Positions 2,191 through 11,799 of a stretch of 64,000 bases of DNA are shown in pieces. Positions within the stretch are counted from its first letter, which is position 1, and every line of letters starts with the position of its first letter. Under the pieces are notes generated by a model, which saw only the letters and a program-made list of their open reading frames with translations, did no database searches and was not told the origin of the DNA. A program made the translations under genes and the position numbers. Source of the stretch: Thalassospira sp. MCCC 1A01148 (lineage in GTDB: Bacteria > Pseudomonadota > Alphaproteobacteria > Rhodospirillales > Thalassospiraceae); the NCBI RefSeq assembly GCF_001613795.1, contig NZ_LPVZ01000020.1, positions 310,001 through 374,000 of the forward strand, in the 5' to 3' direction.

Positions 2191-5100
2191 TCAGTCATAG
2201 GCCGTCATTGAGCCATCCGGGCGGGCAACCCAGATTTCTCCAGCAGCACTTACTGACACAGTCTGCGCTTTGGTTTCATCAATGACCTTCCAGCTCTTCG
2301 CATTTTCATCCCACTGGTAAAGTGTGTTTCCGTTGGGACCGCCCAGATGCCAGACCGACCCGTCCCGGCCAACAGCAACATCACGTGCCTGCCCCGGAAT
2401 CTGGTTCCATTGATTGTTTTCCAATCGATAGATTTCGCCTTGCCTGCCTACAGACCAGACTTTGCCATCGGCACCCGCCGCAATTTTCGCGACATTGCCC
2501 GGAACCCTGATCCAGCCACTATCCCCCATACGATAGACGCTGCCATTACCACCAATATGCCACTGGGTTCCGACATCATCGACGGCGATGTCTGATGCCC
2601 AACCCGAAATCGGCGTTTTCTTGCCCAGGGAATCAATATTCCACATTTTGCCGTCCGTGGTCAGAATGAAGGCATTGTTCTTAAGTCGTCCGGCTTCGAC
2701 CCGCGCAACCCCGGAAGCAAGAACCTGCTTCCAGCCCAGTTGCCCCCGGGGCTGGATATACAGCGAACCACTGCCACCGATATGCCAGACATCACCACTC
2801 TTACCGATACTGACCTGACTTGCCCGGCCAGCAACATTGCGCCATTTCTTCGGACCAGACATTACAGCATAGGTAACCGTCGGCTCGTCGACCTCGATCT
2901 GTGTGATGGTAATTCCGTTATCCTGAACAACGGTTTTTGTCGAATCCACCAAATTGCCGGGATCGGCCATCGCTGGACGCGGCGTGGATTTGTGGCGATA
3001 TAGGACAATCGCATTATCCGGACGCAATGCCCACAGCGCACCCGAAGGTCCGGCGTCAATCTGGCTGATCGTGCCACCGCGTCCTTCTTTCCAACTGCCA
3101 TTGTACGACAGTCGGAAAACTTCATTTTCAAGACTAGTAATCCACACCGCACCATACGGGCTGACGCTGACATCCTTTGCTTTTCGGCCGAAGTCCTTCC
3201 ATTGGCCATTCAGCAAATAATGCAGTTTGTCATTGGTATCGATGACCCACAGCATGCCCCCCTGCCCTGCAGATATCTTTTTGGCTTTCGGGCCATTGAT
3301 ACGTTGCCAGTTGAAATCATCGGGGTCGGCAACATAAAGGCTATTGCTGCCACCAATGTGCCATTTGCGTCCGTCCGGCCCAACGGATACCGCATGGCCA
3401 ATTCCGGACACATTACGCCAGGAACGACCATCATACATCTTCATGGCCCCACCCTCTGCCAGCGCGAATGCCGCTTTTCGACCTGGCATTGCCGCTATAT
3501 CGACGAAATTGTCACCGGCGGCAATTTCAGACCATTTGTGATCATTTGCCGGATCAGCCCAATAAGCCTTGCCGCCGCCAATGTGCCAGACGTCACCGGA
3601 AGGACCTGCTGAAATGGCCGTCGCACTACCATCAAAATTATGCCAGCGACCTTCGTCATACACGAAATAAAGCGGATCCGAGCTGAAGCGGGACTCCTCA
3701 TAGTGCGCCATCGCCGCTGCTTCGATCTGTTTCAGGTCGCTTGCAGAAGGCCGCACTTCGTTACTTGTTGCCAAGGCCCAGTATGAATAGACCTTTGCCG
3801 CCTGATCCTTGTTTTGCAGCCAAACTTTCAGGCTGGGCTTGTAGGATTTCGCATGTTCAAGCGCCCGCATCAGAGCCGGACGCGCATCTGCTTTGGCGAG
3901 GTTCTTGTTAAGCTCGGCCTCAAAAATGGCAACCGCCAGTTCGATCACGATCTGCGGTCCGCTTATGGAAAGCATCTTTGTGACCAGTTTCTTTGATGCC
4001 TTAAAGGCCGTTTTTACCGCGGCACGCGCTGCGTCATCGGCCACGTCACCGATTTCCCGGCCTACTTTTGATGCAACCTTTCCGATATCATCGCTCGACC
4101 CCAGTATGTCATCGACGTTATCACCAAGTTCTTGCGAGACGAGCTTCATCTTGTCGTCGATATCGTAAATCTCATCAACGAGATCATCAGCAAGGTCAAT
4201 TCTGGTCCTGTTTGGATAGGCTTTCCGAATAATCGCATCTGCGACCGTTTCATCCTTAAGCGGGATAAGAGCGGTAGAGAACATACCCAGCGTCGGAACA
4301 GCTGCCACTGTATTCACCATCGCCGCACGGTTCGTGATCTGCTTAAAGTTTGGTGGCACGGGTAGATGATCGCTGATCAGAAACTGCAGGTTCGAACGTC
4401 CCGCCTTTGAATCGGCGGTCTGCTTTTCTTTCAGCTTCAAGGTCTGTGCAGCATGCCACACGTCGTATGCTTTGACGGCCTCTGTCGCCAAATAGACACG
4501 ATACCCGTTGGCGAACTGTTCGATTTCACGGATCAGGCGCCCCTCCGGGCTACTCGAAGAGACTGAACCGCTCATCACTGCATTGACCAGGTGATTAAGC
4601 ACCGCATACCGCAGAGCAAGGCTTTCTTCGGGATAGTGTGCAATTTCCTGCCAAAGAGCTTCAATCGCACGGGTCCGGTCCACACCTTCGGCACGCCCCA
4701 TATTGACTGCAATCCGCTCAAGCTCCGCACGTTCCGCGATCACTTTCAGAATGACACCCGTCGCGCCATCCATCTGCATGAAGCCCTTGCTAGGATAAGG
4801 TTCCATTTCCCATTCGATACTCGGTGCAAGGCAGCCACGCGGGGAATCAACTGATTCCTCAGAGCGGGTGTAACCTGCCGGGCAGCTGTAGCAGCTGCCG
4901 AAATTCTTCGGGTCCCAGAACGCGTTGTTGCCATATTGCTTGCAACCTGCTTCGCCTTTTTTCTCTGCCGAAGCGGTCTCAAACACGGGACGCCCGCATG
5001 CCTGAGCACTTTTTACCGAATTGATGGTGCGAACATACCCATCCGGGCAGGACCAGCAACTTCCACCGTCGATCAGGTCAAAGACGGCATTATCATCACC

Positions 5101-5664
5101 ACATTCAGGTCCCTTGAATTCGGCGTTGCGCCAACTGAACTGCAAAAGCCCCGCAACCCGTTCACACGCCTTGTCGGAATTGATCGGATCGAACAAGGTG
5201 CGGTTATAGCCCGTTGGGCAACGCCAGCAGGTACCGCCATTATACATGTCAAAGAAGCTGCCCGGCGGGCACTGCGATACGCCTTCAAGCAGCTTTGCCG
5301 GGACAGCATCATTGAACACATCTTTGCTCGTAATCTTGTGACACGCAGAATTCGTCGTTACCGCATCACCAGACCGACTATAACCTGTTGGGCAGGACCA
5401 GCACGCTTCAAGATCATAGAACTGACCATCCGGACATGTCGTGGCAGGTTTGCCTTCATATTTTGCCGGTCGCCCCTGGCAGCTTTGTTGCAGTTGGCCA
5501 CGTTCATCCAGACCACCGCAAAGCGCCTCGGCCCGGGCTGGCTCGTTGACGATCATCATCCCCGCCAGACCAATCAGCACACCGACAAAAGCAAACATCA
5601 GATGTCGAAGCGTTTGATCATCCAAGTTTATTTCCCGGACCCGGGATTGGGTTTCGTCTGTCAT
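2191..5664 (-). CDS. Large exported protein: four Cys-rich repeats, a helical middle and a C-terminal tectonin-like beta-propeller
   Basis: 1157 residues. A membrane segment at about 20-42 is followed by an ARAEA site, so the protein is exported or anchored. Residues about 48-285 hold four repeats of the form C...F(x)nCWxCPxGYxR...AC. Residues about 300-670 are mostly helical and charged, with one hydrophobic helix near 570. From about 680 to the end there are ten or more blades with recurrent DVAVGxDGxVWHxGG and WxxIPG motifs, the signature of tectonin repeats. Tectonin propellers in other organisms bind glycans or lipopolysaccharide; that role here is inferred. It is the last gene of a three-gene minus-strand operon, 10 bp after its neighbour. 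The start is supported by AGGAG 7 bp upstream, overlapping the previous stop. I know no named family with this whole architecture. Confidence 0.8.
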   Translation of the reverse strand: MTDETQSRVREINLDDQTLRHLMFAFVGVLIGLAGMMIVNEPARAEALCGGLDERGQLQQSCQGRPAKYEGKPATTCPDGQFYDLEACWSCPTGYSRSGDAVTTNSACHKITSKDVFNDAVPAKLLEGVSQCPPGSFFDMYNGGTCWRCPTGYNRTLFDPINSDKACERVAGLLQFSWRNAEFKGPECGDDNAVFDLIDGGSCWSCPDGYVRTINSVKSAQACGRPVFETASAEKKGEAGCKQYGNNAFWDPKNFGSCYSCPAGYTRSEESVDSPRGCLAPSIEWEMEPYPSKGFMQMDGATGVILKVIAERAELERIAVNMGRAEGVDRTRAIEALWQEIAHYPEESLALRYAVLNHLVNAVMSGSVSSSSPEGRLIREIEQFANGYRVYLATEAVKAYDVWHAAQTLKLKEKQTADSKAGRSNLQFLISDHLPVPPNFKQITNRAAMVNTVAAVPTLGMFSTALIPLKDETVADAIIRKAYPNRTRIDLADDLVDEIYDIDDKMKLVSQELGDNVDDILGSSDDIGKVASKVGREIGDVADDAARAAVKTAFKASKKLVTKMLSISGPQIVIELAVAIFEAELNKNLAKADARPALMRALEHAKSYKPSLKVWLQNKDQAAKVYSYWALATSNEVRPSASDLKQIEAAAMAHYEESRFSSDPLYFVYDEGRWHNFDGSATAISAGPSGDVWHIGGGKAYWADPANDHKWSEIAAGDNFVDIAAMPGRKAAFALAEGGAMKMYDGRSWRNVSGIGHAVSVGPDGRKWHIGGSNSLYVADPDDFNWQRINGPKAKKISAGQGGMLWVIDTNDKLHYLLNGQWKDFGRKAKDVSVSPYGAVWITSLENEVFRLSYNGSWKEGRGGTISQIDAGPSGALWALRPDNAIVLYRHKSTPRPAMADPGNLVDSTKTVVQDNGITITQIEVDEPTVTYAVMSGPKKWRNVAGRASQVSIGKSGDVWHIGGSGSLYIQPRGQLGWKQVLASGVARVEAGRLKNNAFILTTDGKMWNIDSLGKKTPISGWASDIAVDDVGTQWHIGGNGSVYRMGDSGWIRVPGNVAKIAAGADGKVWSVGRQGEIYRLENNQWNQIPGQARDVAVGRDGSVWHLGGPNGNTLYQWDENAKSWKVIDETKAQTVSVSAAGEIWVARPDGSMTAYD

Positions 5665-5674
5665 GTCCTTGCTC

Positions 5675-8281
5675 CTAGTCGCGTGCCCGCTTGATGGTCG
5701 GTGTGTTGTTCACACTCAGCCACAGACGTCCATCTTCCTCGACGTCAAAATTTTCAGCTGTGGAATTTTTGATGAGATCAAAGCTCTTGTTCGTCGCATT
5801 CCAGCGATACACGCCATTATCGGAGGTCAGGATAAAGACCTCGCCGTTGCGTGACACCCGGACTGCTTCGGCCTTTTGCCCTTGACTGGGCCGCTTTTCA
5901 AATGACGTGCCTGTCCATTGCCGGACATAAAGACTGCGATCAATAATCCAGACGTCGTTACCGGCACCCACCGAAACGTCGTACAAGGAATTGAAGTCGT
6001 CAAAGCGCGTAAAACTGTTGCTGCCCGGACCTTTGGAATACAGCCAGTAATCGCCGCCGGTATAGAATATCGCGTAAACTGTATCGTCTGGTGCAACTGC
6101 GACACCTGCGGGTGTCAGGCCGCTAACCTTGAATTCTTGCTGGCTTTTGTTGCGTTCACGGAAAAGCCCTACAGACGGGGACAAGGTCGAAGCCCAGATA
6201 TCCCCGTTACTTGCGACATCGTAATCCTGAATATTGGCATTCTGGTCGCCAAATGCGGTGGACTCTGCCACGAACTTTCTGCGCCGTTCGTCATAAACAA
6301 ACATGGAGCCTGATTGGCTTGGGCTGTTGGTATAGGAATAGCCATAGACAACGCCGTCATTGCCGGTAGCAATCTCGATATCAGCCCCGGAAGGTGCCGC
6401 ATCTGTTTCGACGGTTTCAAAGCTAATATTTTTGGTAAAGGTGAAGCCTTCTACGATGTTCGACGTGACGGAGGCCGTATCACCCCTGCCCTCCATGTCT
6501 TCGGACGTTCGCGCCGCAATGCGCAGGTCGCCACTTTCATCGCGTTCAAAGAACTGACTTGCCAGAATCGTCCCATCCGAAGCGACTATCCACGGGTATC
6601 CTTGCGGCCCGGCCGCAACTCTTTTGGGTGTTTTGCGCGCAAGTCGGACGGTTTCAAAATCACCGATATCATCGTTATACCGGCGCAAAACATTGTCGGG
6701 TGTCACGATCCAAAGGGTACCGTCAATGCCAGTGGCAAGGCTTGTTGCCTTCTGACGAACGGTTTTGCATCCCGTATCACCGCAATATTGCAAAAAACCG
6801 TTTTCGAGAATGGTCCACGGACTTCCATCAGGCATCAGGGCAATCGAAACGCCTTGTCCATCTATTGGTGTAAAGCCCGTGCCATTGCGATCAGTGCGGT
6901 AAAGTCGCCCTTGGGCATTTACCGTCACAACATCGCCATTTGCGGCAATGGCGATGTCTGCTGCAGTTTGACCAACAACCTGTTGCCAATCATTCCCGGT
7001 GTGGCGAAACACACGGCCAAGCGCAGAAACGCCCCACGGATTTCCATCCGGATCAACCGCAATACGAACCACACTGCCGGGAAAACCGTTAAACCGCCCT
7101 TGGCTGTTCGACCAACGCAGGATATCGCCACCTCGAATGGCAAAAACACTGCCATCCCGGCCAATCGCCAAACGGTCGGCACTGTCACGCGTATCGGTAA
7201 AAGTCAGGTTGCCGTCATAGGTCCGGCTTGCCGGATCTTCGGCAAGATTGTCCGCGACAGGTCGTTCAGTTTTATCGCCACTCCCCTCACGAGTATCGTC
7301 ATTTGATACCGTTTGCGTTTCTGACGGCGGCGGTGAAATTGGTTCTGCACGTGACGGGTCCGCACGCGCGACCGGTGCTTTGGGCGGACTTGCGGATGGA
7401 TAGGCAGACGAAATTTCATCTGCCGTTATCTCGTCAGCCTTTATGTCATCCGGGCGCGCTTCCGGCGCGCTAAGGCCCTCTGCACCAGTTTCCTGATCTT
7501 GCGGATCAATACCGGATGACAAGGCAATCCGCACCTTGGCCAGAATGCTATTGTCTCGTAACACGACCCAAGGTGCCCCGGAACGTGTCACCGCAATGTC
7601 GGTTGCCGTATCCACCCCCTGAAGAACGAACCAACGCTGGTCGCGCATCCGCCACAGCATCACCCGACCATCCGGGTGGACCATTGCCACACGTTGATTT
7701 AAACCCGCAGCAATATCGCGTGCCAGACCGGGAAGCGTGTGCCATCCCGCATCATCGCGCATGCGAATTTCATTTGTCGGGGTAACCGCCCATAGCCTTC
7801 CATCCGGATCGACTGCCAGCCGCTTTGCAATACCGGTTATGGTTTCCCAGCTATGTCGTAGCTCCAACCACCGCTGAACAGAGCCATCTGTCTTGGCGAT
7901 ATAGATTTCGCCACGTGCGTTGCCTGCTACATCAACGACGTCACTGCCTTTGCGCTCCCACCACAGACCATTATAGCGATAGACATCCCCATCACCGTCA
8001 ATGACCCAGGGACGGCGTTCAGCGGCCCCCGTGATCCGAACAAAGGAGCCCGACATGGTGCGCCAGCGTTCTTCCCGTGGATCCCAGCGAAGCGGGGTTC
8101 CGTCCACCGAGATGGCATAGGCCTCGCCAATTTCTGTTACCGAAATATCCTGCGCCTGACCCGGCAAGGTGAACCACACCCCGTCATCAAGCACCTGGGC
8201 TGCATGGCTTATCCCGGCCATGGCCTGCAATGCGCCTGCAAACAAGATCACCAAAACAATGCAGTATGAAAGTCTTGTCAT
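5675..8281 (-). CDS. Secreted multi-propeller protein with tectonin-like repeats
   Basis: 868 residues from the ATG at 8281, which has AAAGG 7 bp upstream. A Sec signal peptide of about 28 residues ends near GISHAA. Three blocks follow. Residues about 30-260 form a set of tectonin-like blades (RLAVDPDGRLWAV, DIAVTRSGAPWVV). Residues about 260-365 are a low-complexity Pro/Asp/Glu/Ser linker with short repeats such as KADEITADEI. Residues about 366-868 hold further blades (IAVDPDGNPWGV, LATGIDGTLWIV). It contains few cysteines, unlike the next gene. It sits 23-30 bp after the secretin gene and 10 bp before the Cys-rich propeller gene, so all three are probably co-transcribed. I infer that it is a periplasmic or surface partner or substrate of the secretin; the ligand is unknown. 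Confidence 0.8.
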   Translation of the reverse strand: MTRLSYCIVLVILFAGALQAMAGISHAAQVLDDGVWFTLPGQAQDISVTEIGEAYAISVDGTPLRWDPREERWRTMSGSFVRITGAAERRPWVIDGDGDVYRYNGLWWERKGSDVVDVAGNARGEIYIAKTDGSVQRWLELRHSWETITGIAKRLAVDPDGRLWAVTPTNEIRMRDDAGWHTLPGLARDIAAGLNQRVAMVHPDGRVMLWRMRDQRWFVLQGVDTATDIAVTRSGAPWVVLRDNSILAKVRIALSSGIDPQDQETGAEGLSAPEARPDDIKADEITADEISSAYPSASPPKAPVARADPSRAEPISPPPSETQTVSNDDTREGSGDKTERPVADNLAEDPASRTYDGNLTFTDTRDSADRLAIGRDGSVFAIRGGDILRWSNSQGRFNGFPGSVVRIAVDPDGNPWGVSALGRVFRHTGNDWQQVVGQTAADIAIAANGDVVTVNAQGRLYRTDRNGTGFTPIDGQGVSIALMPDGSPWTILENGFLQYCGDTGCKTVRQKATSLATGIDGTLWIVTPDNVLRRYNDDIGDFETVRLARKTPKRVAAGPQGYPWIVASDGTILASQFFERDESGDLRIAARTSEDMEGRGDTASVTSNIVEGFTFTKNISFETVETDAAPSGADIEIATGNDGVVYGYSYTNSPSQSGSMFVYDERRRKFVAESTAFGDQNANIQDYDVASNGDIWASTLSPSVGLFRERNKSQQEFKVSGLTPAGVAVAPDDTVYAIFYTGGDYWLYSKGPGSNSFTRFDDFNSLYDVSVGAGNDVWIIDRSLYVRQWTGTSFEKRPSQGQKAEAVRVSRNGEVFILTSDNGVYRWNATNKSFDLIKNSTAENFDVEEDGRLWLSVNNTPTIKRARD

Positions 8282-8310
8282 AATCAAGCCTTTCTGTTGA
8301 CGGATCCGGT

Positions 8311-10230
8311 TCAGGACTGTGCAAGAAGATGTTTACGAAGGGCCGTCAGGTTTTCTTCGACACTGGTGTCCTCAAACGATGAATTGAGATCCATGTCGCC
8401 GCTTCGGAATTCATCAAAGAACGCCTTGCCCTGCAGCTTGTCCAGAATGCTCTCGAACGTGGGACGCGGCGTGAACCAGTCACTGTGGCGGCGCTCCAGC
8501 CGGGACGTTTCCTTTTCGAGCGCCGACAACTGGCCAATGATCCGGTCGCGATCTTCTGCAGACTGGCGCACATAGTGCGGCCGTCGCGGTGTCAGCAGGA
8601 TCAGGATCGATTTTTCGAAATTACGTTCCGTGCGTTCGGAAAACAGATAATTCAGGATCGGCATATCCTTGAGGATCGGCACCCCGTCAGAGACCTTTGA
8701 TGTCTCGCGCTCACTCAATCCACCCAGAATCAGCGTTTCACCGAACTTCATCGTTACGGTCGAATTGACGTTTGTCTTTGTCGTATCAAGACGAAACTCA
8801 AAGACGACGGAGTTCGATGGATCGGTCAGGAAGGTCCGTTCGGCAACAACATGCAGTCTGATTTCGTCGTTTTGAAGAACCTCTGGCGTGACGGCGAGTT
8901 TCACACCGACTTCTTTCTGAACAGAAACACTGTCCCCGTTGCCGCCCGAAACGGCTGCTGCAAGAATTTCCGTGCCAGAGAAGAATTCAGACGTTTTACC
9001 ACTCTGTGCAACCAAACTTGGTTTCGCCAGAACCTGATTGTCCGCATTCAGTGAATTGGCAATATTCAGTGAATAGTTTACCGCCGGAATGCTGATCTGC
9101 GAGGTGATGGTCTTGGTGCTTTCCTCAAGTCCGGTGCCCAGAAAATCCCGTGTTCTGGTACGCGTAATTCCGGCTGCCGGCGCGCCCGTCAGGGGGTCCC
9201 CAAACTGAAGCTGCAAACCATTTAAAAGGTTTACCCCGCGCGAATCACGCAGGTCTTCCTGTGTACCGATCAGGACAACATCAACCACAACCATCGATGC
9301 GTCCGTCGAATTTGCCCCGACCTCATCGCCATAGGCGTTTGCCGGACTGTCACCATACGCATCAAAGGGATCAGAGGACTCTGCGCCGTATGGATCGCCA
9401 TACGGATCACTTTGATAGGTGGTGCCACCGCCTGCATACGGATCATAGCCGCCCTGCGCCAAAATGATCTTTGCGTCGCTTTCGTAAAACGACCGCCAGT
9501 TATCAACACGCCGATGTAAAAATGGCAGTTCACCGTGATCGGCAGCCACACCGGCATATCGCGCCATCAAGCGATCCACACCTGCACGATCATCCATCGC
9601 CGCAAGCGCCATCATCCGGGCTTTCAGGATTTCCGGTCGGTTCTCGGCATCGGGATGAATATTTGAAAGGCGCGAAAGCGCGGCATCGGCTGTTTGCGCA
9701 TCATGGGAAAAGTAGGATGCCACCGCAAGATTATACAGAACATCCGGACTGTCAGAACGGTAAATCGCGACATATGAGAAATGCTCTTTGGCTTCCTGAT
9801 AGCGCCGCTGACTTTTATAAAGAAGACCCAAGTGATAATGCGCAGCAAGATTGCCTGAATCAAACTTCAGAGCCTGACGGTATCCTTGTTCGGCAAGGGT
9901 GTATTTGGCCGTATCACCGTCGTCACCAAGTTGATGATAAACATAGCCGTTTAAAAACTGCAGATGCGGATTTGTGATATCAAGCTTCAGTGCAAGGTTG
10001 GCTGCACGTGATGCCAATTCCAGCTCGCCACGTCCAAGTGCGTTAAACGCCTCTGTGACCAGAAGCTGCACCTGATTTACACTTCCTGACTTGTTTTCTT
10101 GAGACGACGTTGTTAGCTCGCCTGACAGCAATTGCGAAGGTCCACCACTGTCAAGCGTCTGACAGGCGCCCACCGCAAGCAAGGCCGAAAAGGCCACGGC
10201 CCGACTTAGCCGTAACGGGAAATTTTGCAT
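8311..10230 (-). CDS. Outer-membrane secretin-type lipoprotein with N-terminal TPR domain
   Basis: 639 residues. A lipoprotein signal ends in VGAC with the lipidated Cys at 23. Residues about 50-245 are tetratricopeptide repeats. Residues about 255-300 are a Gly/Asp/Tyr-rich linker with DPYG/DAYG repeats. Residues about 310-560 form a secretin domain of the type II/III secretion superfamily: VVVDVVLIGTQED, LAKPSLVAQSGKTSEFFSG, a VGVKLAVTPEV segment and the closing FGETLILGGL...PILKDMPILNYLF. A charged, probably helical tail follows. Secretins form outer-membrane gates for type II/III secretion, type IV pili or phage export. No secretion ATPase, inner-membrane platform or pilin gene lies in this window. 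The neighbours are two large exported propeller proteins, which suggests a dedicated gate or a role shared with a system elsewhere. The start has AGGA 5-6 bp upstream. Confidence 0.88.
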   Translation of the reverse strand: MQNFPLRLSRAVAFSALLAVGACQTLDSGGPSQLLSGELTTSSQENKSGSVNQVQLLVTEAFNALGRGELELASRAANLALKLDITNPHLQFLNGYVYHQLGDDGDTAKYTLAEQGYRQALKFDSGNLAAHYHLGLLYKSQRRYQEAKEHFSYVAIYRSDSPDVLYNLAVASYFSHDAQTADAALSRLSNIHPDAENRPEILKARMMALAAMDDRAGVDRLMARYAGVAADHGELPFLHRRVDNWRSFYESDAKIILAQGGYDPYAGGGTTYQSDPYGDPYGAESSDPFDAYGDSPANAYGDEVGANSTDASMVVVDVVLIGTQEDLRDSRGVNLLNGLQLQFGDPLTGAPAAGITRTRTRDFLGTGLEESTKTITSQISIPAVNYSLNIANSLNADNQVLAKPSLVAQSGKTSEFFSGTEILAAAVSGGNGDSVSVQKEVGVKLAVTPEVLQNDEIRLHVVAERTFLTDPSNSVVFEFRLDTTKTNVNSTVTMKFGETLILGGLSERETSKVSDGVPILKDMPILNYLFSERTERNFEKSILILLTPRRPHYVRQSAEDRDRIIGQLSALEKETSRLERRHSDWFTPRPTFESILDKLQGKAFFDEFRSGDMDLNSSFEDTSVEENLTALRKHLLAQS

Positions 10231-10457
10231 CCAATCCTACTCAATCTGTCCCCGACGCGTCTTTGCGCATCCCCTCCATGTCCGAATTGATTGCTTTTGC
10301 GGCACAATCTTCGCGGGCACGTACATGTTTTCGACAGATTACTCAGGCTTTAGGCACAGTTACAGGCAATGGATGTATGGGAAACGGACGAACTTGTATG
10401 ACCAACGGACCTCCAGAACCTGCGCCGCGAAAACCAAATTGCGGCATTGTTTATGGC

Positions 10458-11513
10458 TTAGGCGTTCTTGACCAGAAGCAAGGTCGTTGATCTGGCGTTT
10501 TTGGCGTATTCCGCCGGGGAGACACCATATTTCTGGTTAAAGGCGGTTGAGAAGTTGGTTGAATGGTTATACCCGACTTCCCAGGCGACCTCCTTGATTG
10601 CCATGTCGGTATTTTCAAGAAGATCTCTGGCCGTTTCAAGACGAATGCCGCGCAGAACCTCAAAAACGGTATCAGAATACAGCTCCCGGAAGGCCTGATT
10701 AAGACGCTTTTCGGTTGTTGCAAGCTGCTCTGCAAGGTCCGCAAGACAGGGTGGTTCGCGCAGATTGCTCTGCAACAGCTGATAGGCACGCTGCGCATTA
10801 TCGACATCAGAGTTCTTCAATACAATGCGCTGGTCTGCACTGTTTGTGCGCAAAGACTCCTCAATCAGTGCCAGATACAAAAGTCCGATGCCTTCCATCT
10901 TGATTTGCTGCAATGACGGGGCAGCATCAATATTCAGGTTCTTGAGCAACGTATCGCGCATTGCGCTGGTCACAACGAACGTGACGGGCTGGATATCGTT
11001 CGTATTGGGCTGGAAAAGCGGTTGCAAAGCTTCTGGCACACGATTGTCGAAGTAACGTTTGAAAACATCCGTGGGAAGACTTAACCCCAAAGATTGCACA
11101 TTCTGTCCCGCTGGCAATTTGAAGGTGGTGCTAAGGCCATCATGCACAAACAGATGTCCTTGCATGGGGGAAAAAACGAATTCAGCACCATCTTCAGGGC
11201 GAATCATCGAATACTCGCCCTCAAGCGCAACCATCGCGATGATAAGCCGTCTTCCCGAGATACTTTCGGCCTTGATGACCATGTCATCATCGACAGGGAA
11301 CTGTTGGAAATCGACGCTACCGCCGTTCGACAATAAAACACGCTGATGATGACGGTCTATAACCCGGTCCGTCAGGTCACGCTCTTCATCCACCAGAATT
11401 TTGTCTTGCTCGCCCGTCGAAAGCTCAAGCGTCATTTCATAACGTGTACCAACAACTGCCGCCCCGGACCCATTGCCCTTGGCAACATCTTCTGTTTCCC
11501 GATGCGACGTCAT
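10458..11513 (-). CDS. AraC-family transcriptional regulator
   Basis: 351 residues from the ATG at 11513; a GTG at 11540 is an alternative and neither has a strong ribosome site. The C-terminal hundred residues carry the two helix-turn-helix motifs of AraC/XylS proteins (LADLAEQLATTEKRLNQAFREL and VAWEVGYNHSTNFSTAFNQKYG followed by SPAEYAK). The N-terminal 230 residues resemble the sensor part of PchR-like regulators. It lies upstream of and in line with the secretin operon but 227 bp away, so it may be transcribed separately. Control of that operon is plausible from position only. Confidence 0.85.
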   Translation of the reverse strand: MTSHRETEDVAKGNGSGAAVVGTRYEMTLELSTGEQDKILVDEERDLTDRVIDRHHQRVLLSNGGSVDFQQFPVDDDMVIKAESISGRRLIIAMVALEGEYSMIRPEDGAEFVFSPMQGHLFVHDGLSTTFKLPAGQNVQSLGLSLPTDVFKRYFDNRVPEALQPLFQPNTNDIQPVTFVVTSAMRDTLLKNLNIDAAPSLQQIKMEGIGLLYLALIEESLRTNSADQRIVLKNSDVDNAQRAYQLLQSNLREPPCLADLAEQLATTEKRLNQAFRELYSDTVFEVLRGIRLETARDLLENTDMAIKEVAWEVGYNHSTNFSTAFNQKYGVSPAEYAKNARSTTLLLVKNA

Positions 11514-11799
11514 CAACCAATCTCGTTCTGGATAAGGCACTATTCTTAAGCAAATATACTTATGATTACTCCAAGAGCACTATGAAACAATAATTGCAGC
11601 ACTTGCATATGCACTTTGAAAAACAAGAACTAAAGCCGCACTGAAAATCGCTCTTGGGAACGTTTGTCACCTATCCTTATCAGGGCTAAACACAATATGC
11701 ACCAATGTCTGATGCTTGCGCGTCAGCCAGAGAATATTACCGCCTCCCAAGTTACCATGACATCCTGAAAAGTGCCTGTTCGCATATAACTCGCTGGTA

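Follow-up and report, generated by a model that had tools for sequence, protein, structure and literature searches.

A four-gene locus in Thalassospira

We analyzed one window of 64,000 nucleotides from Thalassospira sp. MCCC 1A01148 (NZ_LPVZ01000020.1, positions 310,001-374,000, forward strand), in which a tight run of minus-strand genes encodes a secretin lipoprotein and two large tectonin-propeller proteins. The first open reading frame (ORF) of this run, at 8311..10230, encodes a tetratricopeptide repeat (TPR) liposecretin of 639 amino acids (aa) with Pfam matches to Secretin (PF00263) and TPR. After a gap of 29 bp (8282-8310) comes an ORF for an 868-aa protein with a signal peptide and a Tectonin (PF19193) match (5675..8281; a TTG at 8287 is another possible start and would give 870 aa), and after a further 10 bp (5665-5674) one for a 1157-aa Cys-repeat/two-propeller protein, likewise with a signal peptide and a Tectonin match (2191..5664). 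An initial annotation had described a three-gene operon with these gaps, encoding a TPR-secretin lipoprotein and two tectonin-propeller proteins of 868 and 1157 residues. Our coordinates and domain searches agree with it on each of these points, but it missed a fourth gene.

This gene, encoding an AraC-family regulator of 360 aa (10458..11540, minus strand; HTH_18 E=6e-21), heads the unit 228 bp upstream of the secretin gene. Because an AraC gene is conserved directly upstream on the same strand at 15 of 16 propeller-linked loci, we count the regulator in the unit, which by this comparison is one of four genes. The regulator is 79% and 65% identical to those of two window-type relatives. Between regulator and secretin, approximately 170 bp upstream of the latter, lies a direct repeat, CATACA-N15-CATACA, with a 21-bp period (10374..10400, minus strand). 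The repeat is kept in all three window-type loci (the window, L014 and L016), its chance expectation in the window is 0, and it is a candidate operator for the AraC regulator.

The ratio of nonsynonymous to synonymous substitution rates (Ka/Ks) was below 0.15 for all genes against their nearest orthologues, and approximately 0.06-0.13 across all four against genome G012, indicating that the reading frames are under purifying selection. Genes in relatives were called as longest ORFs with our own scripts. Two gene orders occur: AraC-secretin-868-1157 (the window, G012 and G005) and a commoner form in which the homologue of the 1157-aa protein, here called the third protein, precedes the secretin (AraC-third protein-secretin-868-type). 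Locus comparison revealed flanking genes that vary from site to site, which identifies the four-gene cassette as the conserved unit. A comparison of flanks for an empty site gave no clean insertion point, as the flanking genes are not adjacent in relatives. In one genome (G008; L026:4943-13253) the AraC and third-protein genes are duplicated as a module ahead of a single secretin.

A predicted liposecretin with TPRs in place of ring domains

The secretin domain is recognized with confidence (PF00263 E=1e-30; 107 bits against a gathering score of 27.5) and aligns to the structures of GspD, RcpA, PilQ and pIV. Along the 639 residues we found a lipobox at Cys23, TPRs at approximately 50-230, a low-complexity linker rich in Gly, Tyr and Asp (260-310), the secretin domain at approximately 313-549 and a C-terminal helical tail. 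The lipobox (LAVGACQT) predicts lipidation of Cys23, which is invariant across 17 relatives, and together with the secretin domain it suggests that the product forms a multimeric outer-membrane pore. An EFRxGD motif in the tail (8311-8420) is invariant in 17 TPR-secretins at identities down to 31%. Pfam searches found no N0-N3 ring domain (Secretin_N or STN) at E<=1, and the NCBIfam GspD and PilQ models cover only residues 314-549 and 383-549, far below their cut-offs. In the predicted architecture, a TPR domain stands in place of the usual N0-N3 rings.

Tectonin propellers and an exchangeable lectin tip

Tectonin matches in the 868-aa and 1157-aa proteins (E=5e-26 and 1e-35) both exceed curated cut-offs. 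The 868-aa protein contains about three tectonin-type propellers (blade spacing ~37 aa), the third too divergent for a sure count, and an Ala/Pro/Asp-rich linker at approximately 265-365. The 1157-aa protein comprises Cys repeats (49-278), a helical body (~290-660) and two six-bladed propellers (677-898 and 944-1157) with the same ~37-aa spacing. Its repeat region holds 18 Cys that are conserved in 13 relatives, implying periplasmic oxidative folding. Most common-type third proteins also carry a hydrophobic segment of 20-26 residues in the helical body (e.g. L015:7410-9950, residues ~488-510), which is weak in the window's own protein. AlphaFold models were used for beta-strand periodicity only; a Foldseek search with a low-confidence model returned generic propellers, among them tectonin 2 (TMt 0.68 over 227 residues) and PorZ.

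The nearest characterized lectins, Laccaria bicolor Tectonin 2 (PDB 5fsb, 5fsc) and fish-egg lectin (4ruq), share the six-bladed tectonin propeller (matches at E=4e-20 by sequence and 4e-34 with a profile). They are small free lectins, whereas the window proteins carry two or three propellers per chain and are linked to a secretin, and the third protein joins its propellers to a Cys-repeat and helical body. Tectonin lectins bind (O-methylated) sugars, and the propellers of the window proteins may likewise bind glycan.

Third proteins from four loci (L022, L023, L069 and L039) retain the Cys-repeat and helical body, but their C-terminus is a ricin-type beta-trefoil where others have tectonin propellers; three of the four were scanned, and their Ricin_B (PF00652) scores, 37-39 bits, exceed the cut-off of 29. 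The tectonin-tipped protein of L019 has a body 58% identical to that of the ricin-tipped L023 protein, and in a body tree it clusters with the ricin-tipped bodies (support 90/96). This kinship between bodies with different tips indicates a swap of unrelated lectin folds on a single body. The swap of tectonin for ricin-B is a new observation of this analysis and the strongest argument that the tip may be a recognition module.

A tectonin protein with Cys repeats like those of the third protein also occurs in a genome without a TPR-secretin (G344; L068:7894-10365), and its C-terminal 150 residues resemble amphipathic beta-strands.

Linkage of secretin and propellers

The secretin occurs together with both propeller families in 16 of 29 Thalassospira genomes, and 13 carry neither propeller; one of these 13 (G021) has a giant-type TPR-secretin only. 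In a tree of 45 TPR-secretins, all 16 propeller-linked secretins form one clade (support 100/100). Partner type changes label 4 times on this tree, compared to 24.1 times in shuffles, so secretin lineage predicts partner type. The unit recurs outside the genus in four further families (G038, G049, G163 and, in part, G053). Propeller genes were linked to this secretin wherever it occurs, although in G053 the 868-aa type alone adjoins it and the third-protein homologue lies elsewhere in the genome. A scan of genome contigs had T. australica as its sole match. We rejected a chance neighbourhood on the perfect co-occurrence within the genus and the single-clade linkage, and a functional link between secretin and propellers is very probable.

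A secretin outside conventional machines

The host genome encodes one secretin in all (PF00263 search). The T2SSF platform (PF00482) had 0 matches in the host and in every sampled Thalassospira carrying the unit, and the only sampled Thalassospira with T2SSF, G009 and G015, lack the unit. For the T2SSE ATPase (PF00437) the host gave a single weak match (59 bits, in a 343-aa frame, profile positions 114-254), which we read as VirB11-type; no dedicated GspE, PilB or CpaF ATPase was found in the host with this profile. Five unit-bearing relatives (G003, G005, G011, G013 and G017) had neither a T2SSE nor a T2SSF match. The initial annotation had left room for a standard pilus locus and for type II or Tad parts elsewhere in the genome. 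The secretin belongs to no pilus or type II secretion system (T2SS) locus, and we rejected a conventional T2SS, Tad or type IV pilus secretin on the missing platform and ATPase. The SctC model of type III secretion scored 43 bits against a cut-off of 238, a secretin score alone, as no search for other type III parts was made. We also rejected a filamentous-phage secretin, with no relative in IMG/VR contigs and no phage genes beside the unit or elsewhere in the window.

Known systems resemble parts of the unit. HxcQ of Pseudomonas aeruginosa is a self-piloting liposecretin; the T2SS that it serves is complete, platform, ATPase and pseudopilins included. The window secretin is likewise predicted to be a lipoprotein that might need no separate pilotin on its way to the outer membrane, but its unit contains none of those three parts, and TPRs lie where N0-N3 would be. 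In type IV pili, the TPR lipoprotein PilF/PilW accompanies the secretin PilQ; the window TPR region gives a sub-cut-off match to the PilW model (E=6e-10), but here TPRs and secretin form one polypeptide and no pilus genes are present. Like the window protein, the filamentous-phage secretin pIV, whose structure has been described (PMC8563730), works outside T2SS, type III secretion and type IV pili. The two differ in that pIV is no TPR lipoprotein and, together with phage partners in the inner membrane, exports virions. PorZ, a surface protein with several propellers, belongs to type IX secretion; its likeness to the window proteins is at the level of fold only and comes from a low-confidence model, and type IX has no secretin.

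The wider TPR-secretin family

TPR-secretins were found in 23 of 385 sampled alphaproteobacterial genomes. Tectonin occurs in three of the 385, in two of them adjoining a TPR-secretin, and ricin-B in nine. Approximately 10 ricin-B genes lie in five genomes that also have a TPR-secretin, and two of them adjoin it, compared to approximately 0.03 expected by chance in our estimate.

TPR-secretins at 31-38% identity (weaker for G055 and G176) adjoin giant proteins with ricin-B, F5/8C or DM9 domains. Homologous giants are direct or near neighbours (a few genes away at most) of a TPR-secretin in G005 (4109 aa), G021 (4117), G055 (4030), G033 (at least 2399), G176 (2384), G042 (999) and G451 (~6,900). 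The lectin-type domains were found in the giants of G005, G055, G033 and G176, and the G021 giant is 71% identical to that of G005 along its length; no lectin domain was found in the 999-aa protein of G042. The G451 giant, from a genome outside Alphaproteobacteria, is a single, repetitive open frame joined over two overlapping stretches (L065/L071), and its C-terminal part, compared by alignment and not by Pfam scan, matches the lectin-bearing ends of the giants in G005 and G021. In T. australica, the 4109-aa ORF with ricin-B and F5/8C domains (L016/L018; contig C22, 7231-19557, minus strand) has a window-type cassette on one side and, on the other, a second, distant TPR-secretin accompanied by an AraC gene of its own; the 4117-aa copy is at L074. 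Loci of the window, common and giant types all occur in T. australica.

A possible one-gate route for lectin display

What might a secretin do with lectin-like partners and no machine? The initial annotation had suggested export or surface display, or a secretin-anchored glycan-binding complex. This is still the best reading, and the tectonin/ricin-B exchange and the giant lectin proteins have strengthened it; export, glycan binding and the complex are all what we infer. From evidence that is comparative throughout, we put the chances at about even that the unit is a one-gate device for secretin-dependent surface display or export. A broader proposal, which we make tentatively, is that TPR-liposecretins may be the sole outer-membrane machinery of an undescribed display or secretion route that needs no ATPase, platform or pseudopilus. 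The folded, lectin-tipped proteins presented by this route would range from 750-aa cassettes such as that of the window up to giants of ~4,000-6,900 aa, and their tips would switch among the tectonin, ricin-B and F5/8C folds.

In the mechanism we propose, Sec would carry the secretin and the 868-aa and 1157-aa products over the inner membrane, and the secretin, as a lipoprotein, would go on to the outer membrane. Its N-terminal TPRs would serve as a built-in, PilF/PilW-like pilotin and as a cargo receptor. The 1157-aa protein would fold and form its disulfides in the periplasm, then traverse the secretin gate or stay held in it with the C-terminal lectin tip outside. Instead of an ATPase, folding, retention or binding on the outer side would give the process its direction. 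The 868-aa protein may itself be displayed as another lectin or may assist in docking as an accessory factor, and the exchangeable tip, tectonin or ricin-B, would set the glycan recognized.

Several points weigh against this proposal. No energy source for export is visible, and sharing an operon need not make one product the gate and another its cargo, as the propellers could stay in the periplasm. The probability of the 16/13 pattern, 1/C(29,16) or approximately 1.5e-8, is a figure that ignores phylogeny. The PilW match falls under the family cut-off (39 versus 154 bits), and TPRs are widespread in proteins. The AlphaFold models, built from a two-sequence alignment, are of low confidence (mean pLDDT, the predicted local distance difference test, 36 and 40). 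Beyond the perfect co-occurrence in the 29 Thalassospira genomes, the wider family, which the initial annotation missed, in part has other partners or none that we recognize. At L040, L041, L042, L044, L046 and L059-L064, TPR-secretins adjoin pentapeptide-repeat and periplasmic solute-binding proteins, a second, different partner cassette. At L043, L045, L047-L052, L054, L055 and L057, mostly in small genomes, they lie among housekeeping genes with no recognized partner. Lectin export is therefore not the general job of the TPR-secretin family.

Rather than ever being cargo, the propeller proteins might act as scaffolds in the periplasm or outer membrane, assembling the secretin, plugging it or making it stiffer, while the pore passes a product encoded elsewhere. 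Propellers are common interaction scaffolds, PorZ turned up in the fold search with the poor model, and the 868-aa type, found with every secretin of the propeller-linked clade, is much better conserved than the third protein (~40% versus ~25% identity). However, no other cargo gene is linked, and a tip that switches between two unrelated lectin folds fits ligand recognition better; we consider such a structural complex unlikely.

Nor do we favor uptake, in which lectins at the surface or in the periplasm would capture polysaccharide entering through a wide secretin pore under control of an AraC-type sugar regulator. The AraC gene at 15 of 16 loci, the lectin-type domains of the partners and the solute-binding proteins (NMT1_3 or SBP_bac_3) beside related TPR-secretins speak for it. 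On the other side, secretins are known as export gates, the unit contains no glycan degradation genes, and no conserved transporter, glycosidase or TonB-type gene accompanies the propeller cassette, whose flanks are unrelated from one locus to the next.

Less probable again is that the third protein is an effector or toxin, released against other cells with its tip picking the target. The hydrophobic segment, the exchangeable tip and the duplicated AraC/third-protein module of L026 would suit such a role, but the window's own protein has the segment in weak form, no toxin family matched and the unit holds no immunity-like gene. A dispersed T2SS, Tad or type IV pilus machine with its other parts elsewhere in the genome is highly improbable and already contradicted: the secretin domain, an ordinary one, does match the models of PilQ and GspD, but its scores lie far under the GspD, PilQ, MshL and SctC cut-offs, no N0-N3 domains were found, the host shows no T2SSE beyond the VirB11-type match and five sampled unit-bearing relatives none at all, and in the sampled genus T2SSF occurs only where the unit does not.

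To our knowledge, every well-studied bacterial secretin works with an energized inner-membrane machine. The initial annotation knew of no named system with these three parts, and we found no paper describing a TPR-secretin/lectin system in the open-licence literature. A widespread secretin lineage with lectin partners in genomes that lack such a machine makes it possible to test directly, with a marine genus that can be cultivated, whether a secretin alone exports or displays folded proteins. Swapping tectonin and ricin-B on one body would amount to a naturally modular way of altering sugar recognition at the cell surface, which bears on the attachment of marine bacteria to particles and algae. 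Together our results suggest that the unit points to an undescribed route by which sugar-recognizing proteins may be placed on the cell surface.

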